Below the pieces are notes generated by a model that did no database searches, was not told where the DNA came from, and worked only from the letters and a program-made list of their open reading frames with translations. From positions 1-39,524 of the forward strand of contig VGOW01000034.1 of the NCBI GenBank assembly GCA_016875735.1: a DNA stretch of 39,524 nucleotides, written 5' to 3'. This DNA comes from Chloroflexota bacterium (lineage in GTDB: Bacteria; Chloroflexota; Anaerolineae; Anaerolineales; VGOW01). This document shows, piece after piece, positions 13,740-36,149 of the stretch. Numbering within the stretch: the first letter of the stretch is position 1; each line of letters begins with the position of its first letter. Both the position numbers and the translations under genes were made by a program.

Positions 13740-14068
13740 TAAGGCGCGGGGGATTGACTCGCCTCTGCATTGAGGCGTACATTGCGATCAACAGGAAAGC
13801 CTCACCCGCTTTCGGGGGTGGCCGGGCTGGCTCTCCGGCAGTAACACTATCTGCGCACTCCGGTCACACATCCCTTTCGCTCTCACCAGCGAATACGGGT
13901 TGCCCTCTTGGGCTAACAAGACCGACCGGCCAATAGGCAGATCGCAGGACATGCCGGATCCGTTCAGCCTCATCGTTTGGCTCTAGCGGCAGTCAAGCGC
14001 TCCTCCGAGTCCAAAGTGGGCGTGGGCTTTCTCTGATTCACCGCAGGCGGCTATGGTCGCCTGCTTTT
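13740..14068 (+). ncRNA. candidate structured non-coding RNA, unidentified
   Basis: About 350 bp without a convincing gene, full of local stems on the plus strand: CGCCTC/GAGGCG at 13760-13777, CACCC/GGGTG at 13803-13820, GCCGG/CCGGC at 13821-13839, TTCGCT/AGCGAA at 13876-13893, GCCC/GGGC at 13902-13913, and GGCA/TGCC around 13937-13956. It ends in a textbook terminator at 14043-14068, which supports plus-strand transcription. Short open frames exist on both strands but lack ribosome sites and recognisable content. I looked for RNase P, tmRNA, SRP, 6S and cobalamin-riboswitch core motifs and did not find them. It could instead be the 3' untranslated region of the membrane-protein gene, which ends at 13717. 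Confidence 0.4.
14043..14068 (+). terminator. intrinsic terminator
   Basis: A perfect 7-bp stem GCAGGCG/CGCCTGC (14043-14049, 14058-14064) with an 8-nt loop, followed by TTTTATTT. Directed on the plus strand; it abuts the stop codon of the convergent minus-strand gene. Confidence 0.75.
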
Positions 14069-14846
14069 ATTTGGAGGCAGGAACGAGATCGAGATAGGGC
14101 AGACTGCGGCGCATGGCCGCCGCGCTCTCGATTTCGAGCGACATGAGGGGCGGGGTGGGCAGGCCGCGCAGCATGGGCAGAATGGTTTTGTAGTCGAGCA
14201 CGCCATCGTCGAAGCCGCGATGCTCATCCACCCGCCCGCCGTTGTTGTTGAGGTGGCTGTATTGAATGAAACTGCCCAGATCAGCCAGCCATTCCTTGAA
14301 CGGCACTTCGGAGAAAAGGTGAACATGCCCCACGTCGAGGCAGGCGATGAGCCACGGCGAATTCACTTGCCGAAGCACGTCGCCGATGAGCGCCGGATCG
14401 TATTCCCACATATTTTCCAACGCCAACCGAATCTCCATCGCTTCGGCGGTTTCGGCCATGCGCCCCCAAAACTGCGCCTGCCGATCCGTCCACGCGCGGC
14501 GGAAGGGCGCGTTGCGGATGGTGGTGAGATAGTTGGCGTGGAAGACGATGGCGCGCGCGCCGAGCCGGGCGGCGATGTCGAGATTCTGGAGGTAGCGGTC
14601 GCGGGTGACGGCCACGATTTTCGGGTCGAGGCTGGCGCTGGTCATGTCCATGAATGCGCCGTGCATCGAGCGCTCGCCCTCGAAGTTCCGCAGTTTATGC
14701 TCGTAAACGGTTATCCATTCGGGGTGGTTGTCGAGCGCATCGGGGTAGGCGAAGGTTTGGATTTCGAGGCCGAGCCCGCGTTCGTTGGCCAGCTCCAAAC
14801 ATTCGTCGAAGTTGTAATGATCGCAAGCGAGGATGACTTTGTCCAT
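14067..14846 (-). CDS. xylose-isomerase-like TIM-barrel protein (sugar phosphate isomerase/epimerase family)
   Basis: 259 aa, cytosolic. The order of motifs fits the AP-endonuclease-2/xylose-isomerase-like barrel: MHGAFMDM near 62, VFHANY near 107, ALENMWE near 143 (metal Glu), CLDVGHVHLF near 179 (Asp and His), YSHLNNNGG near 203 and SLEIES near 242 (metal Glu). These residues usually bind a divalent metal and catalyse aldose-ketose isomerisation or epimerisation. The actual substrate cannot be told. The N-terminus MDKVILACDHYNF is a typical first strand. Its 3' end overlaps the T tract of the opposing terminator. A 240-bp spacer with a CACAGA-type palindrome separates it from the next gene. 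Confidence 0.85.
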   Translation of the reverse strand: MDKVILACDHYNFDECLELANERGLGLEIQTFAYPDALDNHPEWITVYEHKLRNFEGERSMHGAFMDMTSASLDPKIVAVTRDRYLQNLDIAARLGARAIVFHANYLTTIRNAPFRRAWTDRQAQFWGRMAETAEAMEIRLALENMWEYDPALIGDVLRQVNSPWLIACLDVGHVHLFSEVPFKEWLADLGSFIQYSHLNNNGGRVDEHRGFDDGVLDYKTILPMLRGLPTPPLMSLEIESAAAMRRSLPYLDLVPASK

Positions 14847-14979
14847 AACCCGCCCCCAAGGCGGTAGTGCGGGAATTGTACTCTACGCAATGGGGCGATG
14901 CAACCTTTTTATCCACGAAGTTGCACGAAGAAACATTGAAGTGTCGTGGGGTTTCGCGCATCCAAGCCGGAAATTCTGC

Positions 14980-15039
14980 ACACAGATTCACACAGATGGA
15001 CACAGATCAGAATCCGTGTTTATCTGTGTTCATCCGTGT
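14980..15039. repeat. CACAGA-type palindrome with 10-bp units
   Basis: Three 10-bp units (ACACAGATTC-like) at 14980-15007 face an inverted arm at 15012-15039, with 22 of 28 positions complementary. It lies in the 14847-15085 spacer between two minus-strand genes; the rest of that spacer shows no gene. Confidence 0.75.
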
Positions 15040-15085
15040 ACAAAAAGGCTTCAGCGCCTATTCCGGAAACGGGCCGTATAGAGAG

Positions 15086-15691
15086 TCAGGCTACACCCAA
15101 ACGCGCCATTTCGCGCGGCACATCCAACGCGGGATGAAAGTGGATGGCCGTCATCCCAACTCGGCGAGCGGCTTCCACGTTTTCCTGCACGTCGTCCACG
15201 AACACCGCTTCGGCGGCGGACACACCCAGCCGCCGCAGCGCCCGCTCGTAGATTTCGGGATCGGGTTTGCGCAGGCCCTCTTCAGCCGAGATCACCAATT
15301 CTTCGAAGGCGGCAACGATGGGAGGATGGCTGGTGAGGAATTTGCGCGCGCCGCCCCAGGCATTGCTGAGGATGCCGGTGCGATACCGGCCGCGCTTCTC
15401 GGCCACCCATTGAATCAAAGGGAAGTCGAATCGATCGCCCGACCAAAAATCTTGTTGAAGCGCTGTCAGTTCTTCTGCCGTCAGATCGAAGTGGCGGCGC
15501 ACCCATTCCCACGCGTCGATCTCGGTGGCTTGCCCGATGGCGGCGGCATTGGATACAGGGTTGTTGAACACGGTGTCGGCCAGCTCCCAATCGCCGAGCC
15601 CGAATCGCGCTTCCCATTTGCGCCGGCCGCTGAGGTCTTCGGTGCGTAGGAGTACGCCGCCAACGTCGAAGAGGAGGGCGTGAATAGTCAT
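15086..15691 (-). CDS. HAD-superfamily hydrolase (subfamily IA)
   Basis: 201 aa. Motif I is FDVGGVLL (nucleophile D9; the second Asp replaced by Gly, as in YihX/epoxide-hydrolase-N-type members). SNAWGG near 109 is motif II, KPDPEIYERAL near 143 carries the motif III Lys, and FVDDVQENVEAA near 165 is motif IV. The alpha-helical cap lies at about 20-90. Likely a small-metabolite phosphatase; substrate unknown. The ATG has no Shine-Dalgarno; the heptad repeat array at 15701-15783 begins 9 bp upstream. It is directed away from the DUF3090 operon's last gene with only the array in between. Confidence 0.85.
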   Translation of the reverse strand: MTIHALLFDVGGVLLRTEDLSGRRKWEARFGLGDWELADTVFNNPVSNAAAIGQATEIDAWEWVRRHFDLTAEELTALQQDFWSGDRFDFPLIQWVAEKRGRYRTGILSNAWGGARKFLTSHPPIVAAFEELVISAEEGLRKPDPEIYERALRRLGVSAAEAVFVDDVQENVEAARRVGMTAIHFHPALDVPREMARLGVA

Positions 15692-15700
15692 TAGCGAGTG

Positions 15701-15783
15701 GTGGATAGCCGATGGCTGATAGCAGATAGCGGATGGTTGATGGTGGGCGGCTATGAGCCAATTGCTATTCGCTATCTGCTAGA
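15701..15783. repeat. heptad-repeat array, inverted pair
   Basis: Seven forward 7-bp units (GTGGATA, GCCGATG, GCTGATA and so on) at 15701-15749 are followed in the same phase by about five units of complementary type (GCTATGA, GCCAATT, GCTATTC ...) at 15750-15783. The two halves can pair as a long imperfect hairpin. It fills the whole gap between the HAD gene start (15691) and the stop of the PI3K-like gene (15779). Confidence 0.75.
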
Positions 15784-16507
15784 GGGGCGGCCAGGGGTAG
15801 TTGCGGCCGGGGCCGGGTTCGGGGAAGCAGCCCGTCCTCAGCAAACGATCGGCGCGGCGGCGCAGGGCGGTGATCTCGTCGGGGGCGAGGAGTTGAGTCA
15901 ACAGCGTGAGCAGATCGGAGGGCGGGTTGAGCATGGCTCGAAATTTGTTGAGCGATTGGAGAGCGTCGTCGGCGATCTCTTCTCCGGCAAAATCCCACAC
16001 GACGGTGCGAAGTTTGGGCTCGGCGTGAAAGCACAGGCCGTGATCGATGGCCCACACCTCGCCGCGGCGGTCGCGCAAAATGTGGCCGCCTTTGCGGTCG
16101 GCGTTGTTGGCCAGAATGTCGAAGAGGACGATGGGCTTGAGGATTTCTTTGTCGTCTTCTTTGAAGTTGAAGTAATGGCTTTCGGGATCAACATCCACGA
16201 AGAATTGAACCGAGCCGGGTCCTTCGTCGCCGTCGCGGGCAACAGTGGGCGGCACAAAGCCCCAGCCCAACGCCTCGCTTACCACGTAGGCGGCGGTTTC
16301 CCTTTTGTACAGCGTGCCTTCGGGAAAGTCCCACAGGGGCCGTTCGCCGCGCATGGGTTTGTAAACAGCGGGCAGTCGTAGTTCTTCGTAGTTGATGTAC
16401 ACGAGGAAGGTGTAGTTGGACCCCCACGGCAAGAGGCCTTTCATTTCCATCTCGCCTTGACCGAGGGCGGTGAGCACGCGGGTGGCGGTGACAGGGTGGG
16501 AGTCCAT
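15779..16507 (-). CDS. SCO1664-family PI3K/HipA-like protein (TIGR03843 type)
   Basis: 242 aa. Kinase-like landmarks: VYKPMRGERPLWDFPEG near 47 (Lys of a nucleotide-binding strand), LFDILANNADRKGGHIL near 126 (Asn and Asp of a PI3K/HipA-like catalytic loop) and WAIDHGLCFH near 149 (metal-binding IDHG). The family is annotated as conserved hypothetical or phosphatidylinositol-kinase-like; activity is unproven. Its start overlaps the DUF3090 stop as TGATG, so translation is probably coupled. In Actinobacteria the same three families (this one, TIGR03847/DUF3090 and a TIGR03848 histidine phosphatase) occur together, which supports the call. Confidence 0.85.
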   Translation of the reverse strand: MDSHPVTATRVLTALGQGEMEMKGLLPWGSNYTFLVYINYEELRLPAVYKPMRGERPLWDFPEGTLYKRETAAYVVSEALGWGFVPPTVARDGDEGPGSVQFFVDVDPESHYFNFKEDDKEILKPIVLFDILANNADRKGGHILRDRRGEVWAIDHGLCFHAEPKLRTVVWDFAGEEIADDALQSLNKFRAMLNPPSDLLTLLTQLLAPDEITALRRRADRLLRTGCFPEPGPGRNYPWPPL

Positions 16508-17031
16508 CAATACCTATGCCCATTCCTCCTCGGGCAAAAGTGGCCTTCGGGATCGATGGGCTGGAGGCAGTTGCCGCAAATGGGCCGCCCCTGCCCGACG
16601 ATCTGCAGACCGTATTGGGCCATAGCCAGCATTTGCGAGCGCGTGGCCCAGAAACGCACCGAAGCCGCGTCGTCGGGGTTGGCCTCTTCCTCTTGCGCTT
16701 CCTGCGCCACGAGGATCACGCGATCGGTATCTTCGTCGTATCCCAACCCAAACTGCCCCACGCGGAAGAGGGGCTCCAATGGCTCGCGCAGTTCCATATC
16801 GGCTTGAAGGAAACTGCCGCCCGGCGAGAGCAGGCCGGGAAAACGCTGTTGCAGTTCTTGCAAAAATTGTTCGACGCCGATGCCCAGCGCCTGCACTTGC
16901 TGTTTCTCGCACAGCACGGTGGTGGAGCGGCCTCCGCTTTCGGCCTGCAAATAAAACACGCGCTTGCCCGGTTGCCCCACTGCTCCGGTAGTGATGCGAG
17001 TGACGGGGTTGAGTTCGATGACGCGGCCCAT
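16507..17031 (-). CDS. DUF3090 family protein (TIGR03847 type)
   Basis: 174 aa. The family signature is visible: an N-terminal beta-rich segment (IELNPVTRITTGAVGQPGKR, VFYLQAE), GLGYDEDTDRVILVAQE near 96-111, the RFWATRSQMLAMAQYG helix near 127-141, and a C-terminal zinc-ribbon-like CGNC (C152, C155) with HFC (H164, C166) and H172. Function unknown. The ATG at 17031 lies 2 nt after the stop of the histidine phosphatase gene, and its own stop overlaps the PI3K-like start, so the three form one translationally coupled operon. A much longer frame upstream overlaps the phosphatase gene and is not used. Confidence 0.88.
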   Translation of the reverse strand: MGRVIELNPVTRITTGAVGQPGKRVFYLQAESGGRSTTVLCEKQQVQALGIGVEQFLQELQQRFPGLLSPGGSFLQADMELREPLEPLFRVGQFGLGYDEDTDRVILVAQEAQEEEANPDDAASVRFWATRSQMLAMAQYGLQIVGQGRPICGNCLQPIDPEGHFCPRRNGHRY

Positions 17032-17033
17032 AG

Positions 17034-17666
17034 TCAGCCTTTGCGTTTTCTTGTTGGCGGCGTGTCGCGGCCCGATAACGGCTGTTCGTTCATCTTCAGC
17101 ACCATCGGCATACTGCCCAGCCGAAGGTGAGAGATCGATCCGGTGCCGATCAGGATTCGCTGAAACATGTCGAGCGGCGCGCCGAGATAATGCGCCAGAA
17201 TCAATTTGATCACGTCGCCGTGCGAAAAGACGGCGACGGCGCGTTTGGGATATTGGCGGGCGATGGCTTCCATCGCATCTACCGCGCGCGACTGCACGGC
17301 GCGCAGTGTTTCGCCGCCGGGAAATTCCATCGAGGAGGGATTCTTTTGCACCACTGCCCAAAGCTTGGTGCGCGAGAGGGCTTTGACGCTTTTGCCCGTC
17401 CAATCGCCGTAGCGCACTTCGCCCACATCATCGCACGGTTGTATTTCGATCTTTTTTGCCTTCGCCAACGGCAGGGCGGTTTCCATCGCCCGCTCCAGCG
17501 GACTGCTGTAAATGGCTTTGATGGGCGCGGCGGCCAGCCGCTCGGCCACCGCATTGGCCTGCGCCTGCCCTGTTTCGTTGAGGTGCACGTCGGGAGTCCA
17601 TCCAGCCAGTTTGCCTTTGCGCGTATATTCGTTTTCGCCGTGCCGGATGAGGAGGAGGTCGGTCAT
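17034..17666 (-). CDS. histidine phosphatase / phosphoglycerate mutase-like (MSMEG_4193 type)
   Basis: 210 aa. RHGE at 8-11 gives the catalytic His9; R59 in SSPLERAMET, E83 in VGEVRYGDW and H149 in FSHGD complete the active site of the histidine phosphatase superfamily. The C-terminal tail (about 190-210) is basic. It is first in the operon with DUF3090 and the PI3K-like gene. Those neighbours identify it as the TIGR03848 group rather than a glycolytic mutase. The start ATG faces the heptad array at 17678-17806, and the antiporter gene lies divergently. Confidence 0.88.
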   Translation of the reverse strand: MTDLLLIRHGENEYTRKGKLAGWTPDVHLNETGQAQANAVAERLAAAPIKAIYSSPLERAMETALPLAKAKKIEIQPCDDVGEVRYGDWTGKSVKALSRTKLWAVVQKNPSSMEFPGGETLRAVQSRAVDAMEAIARQYPKRAVAVFSHGDVIKLILAHYLGAPLDMFQRILIGTGSISHLRLGSMPMVLKMNEQPLSGRDTPPTRKRKG

Positions 17667-17677
17667 GCGTGGGGGGT

Positions 17678-17806
17678 GGTGATTGGTAATTGGTGATCGG
17701 TGATCAGTAGTCAGAGGTCGGAAGTCAAAAGTCAGAAGTCAGTGAGCGGGCCGTTCGTCAATCGCCATTTGCCACCTGCCACTTGTCATTCGTCCTTCAT
17801 CATTTA
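17678..17806. repeat. heptad-repeat array, inverted pair
   Basis: Ten in-phase 7-bp units at 17678-17747 (GGTGATT, GGTAATT, GGTGATC twice, then AGTAGTC, AGAGGTC, GGAAGTC and so on). After a 10-bp break come about seven units in the opposite sense at about 17758-17806 (CGTCAAT, CGCCATT, TGCCACC, TGCCACT, TGTCATT ...). It fills the divergent gap between the histidine phosphatase and antiporter genes and ends just before a TATAAT box. Confidence 0.8.
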
Positions 17807-17812
17807 TTCTAC

Positions 17813-17818
17813 TATAAT
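17813..17818 (+). promoter_or_regulatory. -10 box of the antiporter operon, near-leaderless start
   Basis: TATAAT (ACTATAAT context) ends 10 bp before the ATG at 17829, so the transcript would start only a few bases before the start codon. No Shine-Dalgarno lies in between. The -35 region would fall inside the heptad array (TTCGTC at 17789-17794 is the best candidate, 18 bp spacing). Confidence 0.5.
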
Positions 17819-17828
17819 ACTCGCGCCT

Positions 17829-19046
17829 ATGTCGCACACCCTCCCTCTGCTGGCCGGGTTAGCCATCGTCATCGCCGCCGCGAAACTGTCGGGGTCGCTG
17901 GCCAATCGATTCGGCCAACCGGCAGTGATGGGCGAACTGCTCATCGGCCTCGTGTTGGGGCCGTCGGCGCTGGGGCTGTTCGACGCCGCTTATTTTTCCA
18001 GCGCCGGAATCCATGAAACATTGGAAATCCTGGGCCAACTGGGTGTGATCTTCCTCATGTTCAGCGCCGGCCTCGAAGTTGATCTCGAAGACTTTCTCAA
18101 AGCCGGGCGGCCAGCGGCGTTGGCCGGAACGATCGGGGTGATCGTCCCGGTAGCCTTAGGCCCCTTGGCCGCATTGCCCTTTGGCTACGATCTCACCCAC
18201 GGCCTCTTCATCGGCATCGTGCTCGCCGCCACCTCCGTCAGCATCTCCGCGCAAACGCTCATGGAACTCAAACGCCTGCGCTCGCCCGAAGGCATCGTTT
18301 TGCTCGGCGCGGCAGTGGTGGACGACGTGCTGGCGATCATCGTGCTCTCGGTGTTTGTGGCCGTTGCGGGCAGCGCCCAAGGCGGGATCGGCCTCGTTTG
18401 GATTCTGATTCGGATGGCGGCCTTTTTCGTCGGCGCTTCTCTGCTGGGCCGCCTCCTGCCCCGCGCGGCGGCATGGAGCGATCAACTTCCCGTGAGCGAG
18501 GGCGGACTGGCGATGGCGATCATCATCGCTTTGTTATTTGCGTGGGCCTCCGAAGTGGTCGGCGGAGTCGCCGCCATCACCGGCGCGTTTGTGGCCGGAG
18601 TATCTTTGGCGCGCAGCCATCTTCATCGCCAAATCTCAGCCGGGATGCGCACGCTGGCTTACTCTTTCTTCGTGCCCATCTTCCTCGTCAACATCGGCCT
18701 CTCGGCCAATGTCCGCCAACTCTCTGCCGCCGATTACGGACTGGCGGTGATGCTCTGCCTCGTGGCCGTCGTGTCCAAAGTGCTGGGCAGTGGAGTGGGA
18801 GCCAAGTTGGGCCGCATGACCTGGCCTCAATCTCTGCGAGTGGGGCTGGGCATGATCTCGCGCGGCGAAGTGGGGCTGATCGTTGCCGGAGTGGGCGTGA
18901 GCGCTGGATTGATCGGCGACAACGTTTTCACTGCGGTGATTGTGATGGTGCTGTTCAGCACGATCATCACCCCGCCGCTTCTGCGGCTTGCGTTCCGCGA
19001 AAAGGAAAGCGAAAATGTCACAACTCATCGTGATGGTCATGGATGA
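17829..19046 (+). CDS. CPA2-family cation/proton antiporter
   Basis: 405 aa, about 12 membrane segments. Typical of the Kef/NapA-like CPA2 group: FGQPAVMGELLIGLVLGPSALGL near 29-52, VIFLMFSAGLEVDLEDF near 74-90, the ion-site region LLGAAVVDDVLAIIVLSVF near 158 with Asp-Asp, ISRGEVGLIVAGVG near 343, and a C-terminus without a TrkA-N domain. Likely exchanges K+ or Na+ for H+ across the inner membrane. The ATG at 17829 is chosen because the frame upstream runs through the heptad array. Its 3' end overlaps the first PII-like gene by 32 bp. Three small regulators of PII fold follow, suggesting transport is controlled by a nucleotide signal. Confidence 0.88.
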   Translation: MSHTLPLLAGLAIVIAAAKLSGSLANRFGQPAVMGELLIGLVLGPSALGLFDAAYFSSAGIHETLEILGQLGVIFLMFSAGLEVDLEDFLKAGRPAALAGTIGVIVPVALGPLAALPFGYDLTHGLFIGIVLAATSVSISAQTLMELKRLRSPEGIVLLGAAVVDDVLAIIVLSVFVAVAGSAQGGIGLVWILIRMAAFFVGASLLGRLLPRAAAWSDQLPVSEGGLAMAIIIALLFAWASEVVGGVAAITGAFVAGVSLARSHLHRQISAGMRTLAYSFFVPIFLVNIGLSANVRQLSAADYGLAVMLCLVAVVSKVLGSGVGAKLGRMTWPQSLRVGLGMISRGEVGLIVAGVGVSAGLIGDNVFTAVIVMVLFSTIITPPLLRLAFREKESENVTTHRDGHG

Positions 19047-19371
19047 CCCGAACAAGTTTGAGGATATATTAAACGCCTGGCTGGAACTCGGAATCGCCGG
19101 CGCAACGATTTTCGACAGCCTCGGCACCGGACACTTTGCCCCCAGCGAATCGCCCGACGATTTGCCGTTGATGCCGTCGTTGAGCGATATTTTGCAGGGA
19201 CGCCACGAGAACAACCGAACGATCTTCTCGGTGGTGACCGACGATTTCGACATCGACCGGCTGGCGGCCGCCACCGAAGCCATCACCGGATCGTTTAGCG
19301 ACATCGACACCGGCATCCTCTTCACCGTGCCGGTGGGCCGGGTGTGGGGGTTACAACCGAAGATAAAGTGA
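19015..19371 (+). CDS. PII-like regulator fused in operon with the antiporter
   Basis: 118 aa. It begins SQLIVMVMDDPNKFEDILNAWLELGIAGATIFDSLG, a beta-alpha-beta ferredoxin-like start as in PII proteins, then has a long loop with acidic and Pro residues (about 40-60) and a second repeat (TIFSVVTDDFDIDRLAAATEAITG ... DIDTGILFTVPVGRVWG). The PII/CdAR fold is inferred from that pattern and from the neighbours. The ATG at 19015 follows AAGGAAA by 6 nt and lies inside the antiporter gene. It overlaps the start of the heptad array at 19360. Confidence 0.7.
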   Translation: MSQLIVMVMDDPNKFEDILNAWLELGIAGATIFDSLGTGHFAPSESPDDLPLMPSLSDILQGRHENNRTIFSVVTDDFDIDRLAAATEAITGSFSDIDTGILFTVPVGRVWGLQPKIK

Positions 19372-19394
19372 CGAGGGACGAACGACGAAAGTGA
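19360..19394. repeat. short heptad-repeat array
   Basis: Five 7-bp units (GAAGATA, AAGTGAC, GAGGGAC, GAACGAC, GAAAGTG) run over the end of the PII-like gene (stop at 19369-19371) into the gap before the next gene. No inverted partner is present. Confidence 0.6.
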
Positions 19395-19401
19395 GGCCAA
19401 C

Positions 19402-19725
19402 ATGCAAGCCATGCTTGCCATTGTGCAATCCGAAGATGCCGAAGCCGCGCTCGACCGGCTGAAGCCGCTGGGCCTGCCCAGCCTGTCGCGCGTCGCCTCG
19501 TCGGGCGGGTTTCTGCGGCAGGGCAACACCGCGCTGTGGATCGCCGTGCCGCCCGGCAAATTGGGGCCGGTGATGAGCGCCCTGCGCGAGACTTGCCAGC
19601 GGCGCACCACCTACGTGCCCGCCCAGCTCGAAGTGGCGCAATTGGCCTCGGCCTTTCCGGTCGAGGTCGAAGTGGGCGGCGCGACCGTGTTCATTTGCGA
19701 CGTGGAACGATTCGAGCAGATTTGA
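19402..19725 (+). CDS. PstA/DarA-like (cyclic-di-AMP receptor family) protein, copy 1
   Basis: 107 aa, PII fold. The hallmark is SGGFLRQGNTALWIAVPP near 34-51, matching the glycine-rich GG-F-x-x-G-N-T-T loop of PstA/DarA (PF06153), and the C-terminal VFICDVERFEQI. In Firmicutes this protein binds cyclic-di-AMP in a trimer. Here the loop reads GNTAL rather than GNTTL, so ligand binding may differ. AGG lies 8 nt before the ATG. Twelve base pairs separate it from copy 2. Confidence 0.85.
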   Translation: MQAMLAIVQSEDAEAALDRLKPLGLPSLSRVASSGGFLRQGNTALWIAVPPGKLGPVMSALRETCQRRTTYVPAQLEVAQLASAFPVEVEVGGATVFICDVERFEQI

Positions 19726-19737
19726 ATGGAGCAAACC

Positions 19738-21110
<1,373 letters not shown>

Positions 21111-36073: not shown

Positions 36074-36149
36074 CATCAGTAGTCAGTGATCAGTAGTCAG
36101 TAGTCAGCAGCCTTCTTCTGATTTCTGACATCTGACTTTTATCTACTGA
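36074..36149. repeat. heptad-repeat array, inverted pair
   Basis: Five 7-bp units (CATCAGT, AGTCAGT, GATCAGT, AGTCAGT, AGTCAGC) at 36074-36108, then units of complementary sense (TTCTGAT, TTCTGAC, ATCTGAC ...) to 36149. It fills the gap between the FAD subunit gene (stop at 36143) and the iron-sulfur subunit gene (start 36067). Confidence 0.8.

Follow-up and report, generated by a model that had tools for sequence, protein, structure and literature searches.

The window analysed here, a stretch of 39,524 nucleotides from a Chloroflexota genome (G000 in our collection), carries three adjacent genes on one strand, encoding a histidine phosphatase (HP), a DUF3090 protein and a SCO1664-family kinase-like protein (Table 1), which is the gene set and the order HP-DUF3090-SCO1664 of the three-gene system TIGR03843/47/48. 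Between the stop codon of HP (17036-17034) and the ATG of DUF3090 (17031-17029) there is a gap of 2 nt, and the DUF3090 stop codon and the ATG of SCO1664 (at 16507) have one base in common (TGATG), so that the close spacing and overlap described in an earlier note on this DNA agree with the coordinates; a fixed ratio of the products, which the note derives from this spacing, would be a possible consequence. The families named in that note were also assigned correctly, as all three proteins exceed the curated NCBI cut-offs: HP passes narrowly with 210 bits against TIGR03848 (cut-off 203.85; 177 bits against PF00300), DUF3090 reaches 166 bits against TIGR03847 (117.25; 159 bits against PF11290) and the SCO1664 protein 280.9 bits against TIGR03843 (172.4).

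Table 1. The three-gene locus and other features of the window.
Feature	Position	Strand	Length
Histidine phosphatase (HP), branch 1, TIGR03848 (MSMEG_4193 / Rv2135c family)	17034..17666	-	210 aa
DUF3090 protein, TIGR03847	16507..17031	-	174 aa
SCO1664-family kinase-like protein, TIGR03843	15779..16507	-	242 aa
HAD phosphatase and TIM-barrel protein	14067-15691	-	
CPA2 cation/proton antiporter, P-II-like gene, two tandem PF06153 genes	17700-20007	+	
DNA N6/N4 methyltransferase with C-terminal RAMA domain	19929-21110	+	
Intergenic repeats, type ATCAGTAGTCAG	17689-17738 and 36075-36110		

To describe the distribution of the three families we compiled 201 Chloroflexota genomes including the source genome, 178 Actinomycetota genomes and 14 well-known control genomes. 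Among the Actinomycetota, SCO1664 and DUF3090 were each found in 81 genomes and together in 80, with one genome having SCO1664 only (E 9e-4, probably a spurious match) and one having DUF3090 only. HP, taken at E <= 1e-45, is present in 80 of the 178 and in 78 of the 80 genomes with SCO1664 and DUF3090; all three families are thus kept in 78 genomes (~44%) and a partial set occurs in five. In Chloroflexota 111 genomes carry SCO1664, 129 DUF3090 and 104, about half of the sample, both (Fisher p 1e-23), a p-value that is too strong because the genomes are not independent even though the test treats them so, and it is the near-identical presence lists of the three families that carry the argument. 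Independent occurrence of the families in most genomes was looked for in the same profile and did not hold, and the claimed co-occurrence therefore stands. Their placement in Actinobacteria is correct in so far as they co-occur there, but they are not confined to this phylum, as about half of the Chloroflexota carry a lineage of their own. In a tree of 93 SCO1664 proteins the phyla separate (3 label changes vs ~31 in shuffles) and the window protein is nearest to Chloroflexota proteins, which argues for an old resident and against a recent import from Actinobacteria. The trio is also present on two contigs titled Rokuibacteriota (L097 and L101), whose SCO1664 proteins group together in this tree, reflecting either transfer or misnamed bins. 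Of the control genomes, Corynebacterium glutamicum alone has SCO1664 together with HP, there without a DUF3090 match.

DUF3090 occurs without SCO1664 in 25 of the 201 Chloroflexota, suggesting a role without the kinase in some lineages, while the reverse is seen in 7; among the few neighbours read at DUF3090-only Chloroflexota loci no substitute kinase was recognised. In several of these genomes a protein of ~327 residues adjoins DUF3090 (L116 3230-4210; L126 5439-6416), which is a D-2-hydroxyacid dehydrogenase in both cases read by eye.

The arrangement of the genes was read in 141 loci, the window included. HP-DUF3090-SCO1664 on one strand is found in 104 of them, followed by DUF3090-SCO1664 (31), HP-SCO1664 (3), SCO1664 alone (2) and SCO1664-DUF3090 (1), with some of the short arrangements being contigs that end nearby; all 40 sampled Actinomycetota loci show the full order. 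Taking as start codon the one nearest to the upstream stop, the HP-DUF3090 junction lies between -60 and +30 nt in 83 of 104 loci and the DUF3090-SCO1664 junction in 96 of 133. As the order recurs in 104 of 141 loci and most junctions are tight or overlapping, the arrangement goes beyond chance. Two Anaerolineae loci even show fusions. In L092 (6711-7925) HP and DUF3090 form a single reading frame of 405 residues, which may be a sequencing error that removed a stop codon since the assembly is a metagenome. In L070 (6368-7925) the partner fused to HP is a DUF3090-like domain without the zinc motif, and a second DUF3090 and then SCO1664 come after it; with two DUF3090 domains present, a sequencing error is harder to invoke. 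Furthermore, a second HP-SCO1664 pair that lacks DUF3090 is present in G201, an Arthrobacter genome, and in G216, also from the Actinomycetota; in Arthrobacter this pair is divergent, and the genome has the full trio as well (L106 8001-8699; G201 C12:132150-133473). Phosphatase and kinase thus stay together even without DUF3090.

No pathway gene is widespread in the neighbourhoods of the 141 loci, nor do they share a theme. Recurrent neighbours are mshC in actinomycetes and homoserine dehydrogenase (identified by sequence inspection) in some Anaerolineales, and small groups of loci have DNA-repair genes nearby, namely those for uracil-DNA glycosylase, RecO and RarA-like and Fpg-like proteins (the last two by inspection). 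In L108 (5194-5907) and ten similar loci, mostly from Actinomycetota, a family-4 uracil-DNA glycosylase is encoded upstream of the trio on the opposite strand. With PADLOC, no convincing family match to the trio was obtained that would point to a role as a defence system.

The neighbour mshC raises the question of mycothiol, in which the trio might provide accessory functions, with HP acting as the MshA2 phosphatase or the trio regulating MshC. MshC (TIGR03447) scored over the cut-off in 15 of the 178 Actinomycetota; all 15 carry the trio, and in 13 of them mshC lies within 3 kb of SCO1664, a linkage noted earlier by Chater et al. (PMC4255298). MshA2 is moreover a named step of the pathway for a phosphatase (PMC9736012, PMC2628429). 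On the other side, these 15 genomes face about 80 trio-bearing Actinomycetota, and none of the 201 Chloroflexota has MshC over the cut-off. This includes the source genome, where an adjacent mshC in a mycothiol producer had been named as the finding to look for and where the best MshA-like protein reaches 392 bits (cut-off 462.5). The trio is thus far wider than mshC, which makes mycothiol unlikely as its ancestral role, and as such it was rejected on the MshC profile; mshC rather seems to have come to settle beside the trio, the wider feature of the two. An accessory role in mycothiol metabolism appears highly improbable to us, and the view that the trio stands apart from this pathway is borne out for Chloroflexota and most Actinomycetota. 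With the TIGR03843/TIGR03847/TIGR03848 system of Actinobacteria, which we take to be Rv2133c-Rv2134c-Rv2135c and the SCO1664 region, with Rv2134c presumably being the DUF3090 gene, the window has the passed cut-offs, the order and the tight spacing in common, but it belongs to Chloroflexota, lacks mshC and represents a separate lineage. The TIGRFAMs descriptions presumably already give an uncharacterised actinobacterial trio and mention Chloroflexi for TIGR03843. What is added here is the quantified profile over two phyla and the independence from mycothiol, together with a predicted fold of the type II PI4-kinase (PI4KII) type with invariant catalytic residues, the HP-DUF3090 fusions and a tentative PUR/Whirly-like predicted fold of DUF3090.

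An AlphaFold2 model of the window SCO1664 protein (m43d4516628e5, pLDDT 86.7) gave PI4KII as the best match in VIA-align (Z 18.7, 3.4 A, 221 residues, 20% identity), followed by Fam20 (16.1), CtkA (13.6), the Legionella lipid kinase MavQ (10.6) and HipA (10.5), with PI3K/PI4K-III at a Z of about 9; PI4KII and Fam20 also hold the top ranks in Foldseek. The earlier description of this protein as PI3K/HipA-like was therefore right about the kinase-like fold, but PI4KII and Fam20 are closer than PI3K or HipA. Kinases of lipids (PI4KII), of sugars and proteins (Fam20) and of proteins only (HipA, CtkA) all have this atypical fold, and the substrate cannot be told from it. K50, E70, D137 (in NADRKGGH), H142 and D155 (in IDHG) are invariant in all 141 SCO1664 sequences, and by analogy K50 is the putative ATP-lysine, D137 the putative catalytic and D155 the putative metal-binding residue. 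As these residues never vary, kinase activity is to be expected of the SCO1664 protein, although no demonstration of it for a member of the family was found. We take the catalytic Asp and the ID(N/H)G metal-binding motif to be at positions matching PI4KII, and His142 to stand where PI kinases have Asn. In contrast to PI4KII (PI4KIIalpha/beta), with which it shares the predicted fold at only ~20% identity, the SCO1664 protein is 242 residues long, has no palmitoylation motif and reaches 24.5 bits against PF00454, just under the gathering score of 27.1, and for this reason it is not filed as a phosphatidylinositol kinase. All 21 of 21 family members match PF00454 weakly. An identity as a HipA toxin is not supported: the HipA_2 Pfam match of the window protein is not significant (E 0.19) and, unlike HipA, it has no HipB-type antitoxin beside it, its neighbours in the window being DUF3090 and a HAD phosphatase.

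Since the kinase is PI4KII-like and a phosphoinositide is formed by stressed mycobacteria, we tested whether SCO1664 co-occurs with inositol-phosphate synthase (PF01658). SCO1664 could be the missing bacterial phosphatidylinositol kinase and HP the turnover phosphatase of an inositol-lipid or inositol-phosphate cycle, with for example PI 3-phosphate, reported in mycobacteria, as target. The nearest fold and the weak PF00454 matches point in this direction, as do the de novo formation of a phosphoinositide in M. smegmatis (Morita 2010, as cited in PMC6176652), the presence of the M. tuberculosis phosphatase Rv2135c in membrane fractions (PMC3866925) and the profile in Actinomycetota, where the synthase is found in 76 of 81 genomes with SCO1664 vs 53 of 97 without. 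This association follows the species tree, however, and may be only that. In Chloroflexota, where the synthase is near-universal (182/201), it was not associated with SCO1664 (99/111 with vs 83/90 without), and 12 SCO1664-bearing genomes, several of them more than 97% complete, have none; the idea survives these genomes as inositol can be taken up. The SCO1664 sequence furthermore shows no obvious membrane segment, and together with the missing palmitoylation motif and the sub-threshold PF00454 score this speaks against such a cycle. An inositol-lipid target is unsupported by the Chloroflexota profile and we consider the whole cycle of this kind very unlikely.

In HP, R8, H9, R59 and H149 are invariant among 106 sequences and E83 is present in 104, with Asp in the other two, so that the catalytic set expected for TIGR03848 is intact in sequence. 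The pairing of a phosphatase with a kinase-like protein proposed earlier is thus supported, with the catalytic residues intact in both. From M. tuberculosis, Rv2135c has been described as a tetrameric acid phosphatase and not a phosphoglycerate mutase, showing a weak activity on general substrates and none on 3-phosphoglycerate, ADP and glucose 6-phosphate (PMC3866925).

The model of DUF3090 (mc448d472623a) is confident (pLDDT 94.7). The window protein has a C-terminal zinc-ribbon motif (C152-x2-C155...H164-x-C166-P-x-x-N-G-H), as the earlier note had it, but metal binding is not universal in the family: a pattern search found the Cys motif absent or disrupted in 16 of the 136 proteins read, with the whole ribbon being lost in L053, L056, L064, L068 and L070 and the cysteines substituted in L109, and the metal is accordingly not indispensable to DUF3090. 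G19, G22, R24, F26, E42, K43 and R149 are identical in all 136 sequences and N170 in 135, and judged from this alignment the conserved polar residues are a better guide to the functional surface than the zinc ribbon. A BCG mutant of Rv2134c is listed with altered sensitivity to sub-inhibitory rifampicin, an unspecific phenotype (PMC11329110).

In VIA-align the five highest-scoring entries for the DUF3090 model are without exception PUR-alpha repeats I-II (Z 8.5-8.9), with the noise among top hits stated to reach 7 to 8. Two proteins of unknown function come next, and then plant Whirly at a Z of about 5. The predicted fold would thus be closest to the nucleic-acid-binding PUR/Whirly domains, which we offer as no more than a suggestion, since Z 8.9 is barely over the noise; the identity is 6% for this match and 5-10% for PUR-alpha and Whirly in general, and DUF3090 has the zinc ribbon in addition. 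If it were right, DUF3090 could recruit RNA or single-stranded DNA for reversible phosphorylation by the kinase and phosphatase pair. A weak resemblance of its ribbon to that of TiaS would fit such a role, and kinase-fold RNA kinases do exist, as ArkI and KptA form a kinase-fold writer and an eraser for reversible tRNA phosphorylation (PMC9095486). The likeness of this pair to the trio is only an analogy, as kinase and eraser of the trio are from other families. Against it, Foldseek with the DUF3090 model gave no match below E 0.001, and sequence profiles showed no link to PUR or Whirly. A comparison of DUF3090 with viral structures gave nothing below 0.001, and a sequence search of the PDB no significant relative. 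That the trio reversibly phosphorylates RNA or DNA appears quite improbable, and we regard as very improbable the specific combination in which a PUR/Whirly-like zinc-ribbon protein holds a nucleic acid, or a protein bound to one, for a PI4KII-type kinase and HP to act on. If true, two major phyla would share a conserved writer-reader-eraser system by which nucleic acids are reversibly phosphorylated.

Tentatively, and with slightly less than even confidence, we propose that the trio forms a kinase-phosphatase cycle on one target. SCO1664, as a kinase of the PI4KII/Fam20 type, would use ATP to phosphorylate a hydroxyl group of the target, HP would remove this phosphate via a phosphohistidine intermediate, and DUF3090 would bind or present the target or might itself be the target. 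The model builds on the families, the intact catalytic residues, the co-inheritance, the operon order, the HP-DUF3090 fusions and the PI4KII-like predicted fold; the HP-SCO1664 pairs lacking DUF3090 and the acid phosphatase activity of Rv2135c also speak for it. Both enzymes would have to be active and to share a substrate, which DUF3090 would recruit. It counts against the cycle that in several relatives from the order of the window organism the phosphatase is located elsewhere in the genome, that some Chloroflexota have DUF3090 but not the kinase or the reverse, and that the genes around the trio point to no single pathway. Provided that the cycle exists, a protein is the target we would name first, if with reserve; a small metabolite seems somewhat unlikely, a nucleic acid unlikely, and an inositol lipid or inositol phosphate distinctly so. 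A PI4KII/Fam20-type kinase together with a phosphatase and possibly a PUR-like zinc protein, distributed more widely than mycothiol, narrows the search for the job of these genes.

Some other features of the window can be mentioned. Directly downstream of the trio and on the same strand follow the HAD phosphatase and a TIM-barrel protein, the latter with a weak resemblance to the cobamide-remodelling enzyme CbiR (45 bits, cut-off 105). On the opposite strand the CPA2 antiporter gene is accompanied by the P-II-like gene (weak PF00543 match) and the tandem cyclic-di-AMP receptor genes (PF06153, 83 and 81 bits), which is possibly a c-di-AMP-controlled ion exporter cassette. The methyltransferase gene adjoins these receptor genes, and the intergenic repeats occur at two distant sites of the window.
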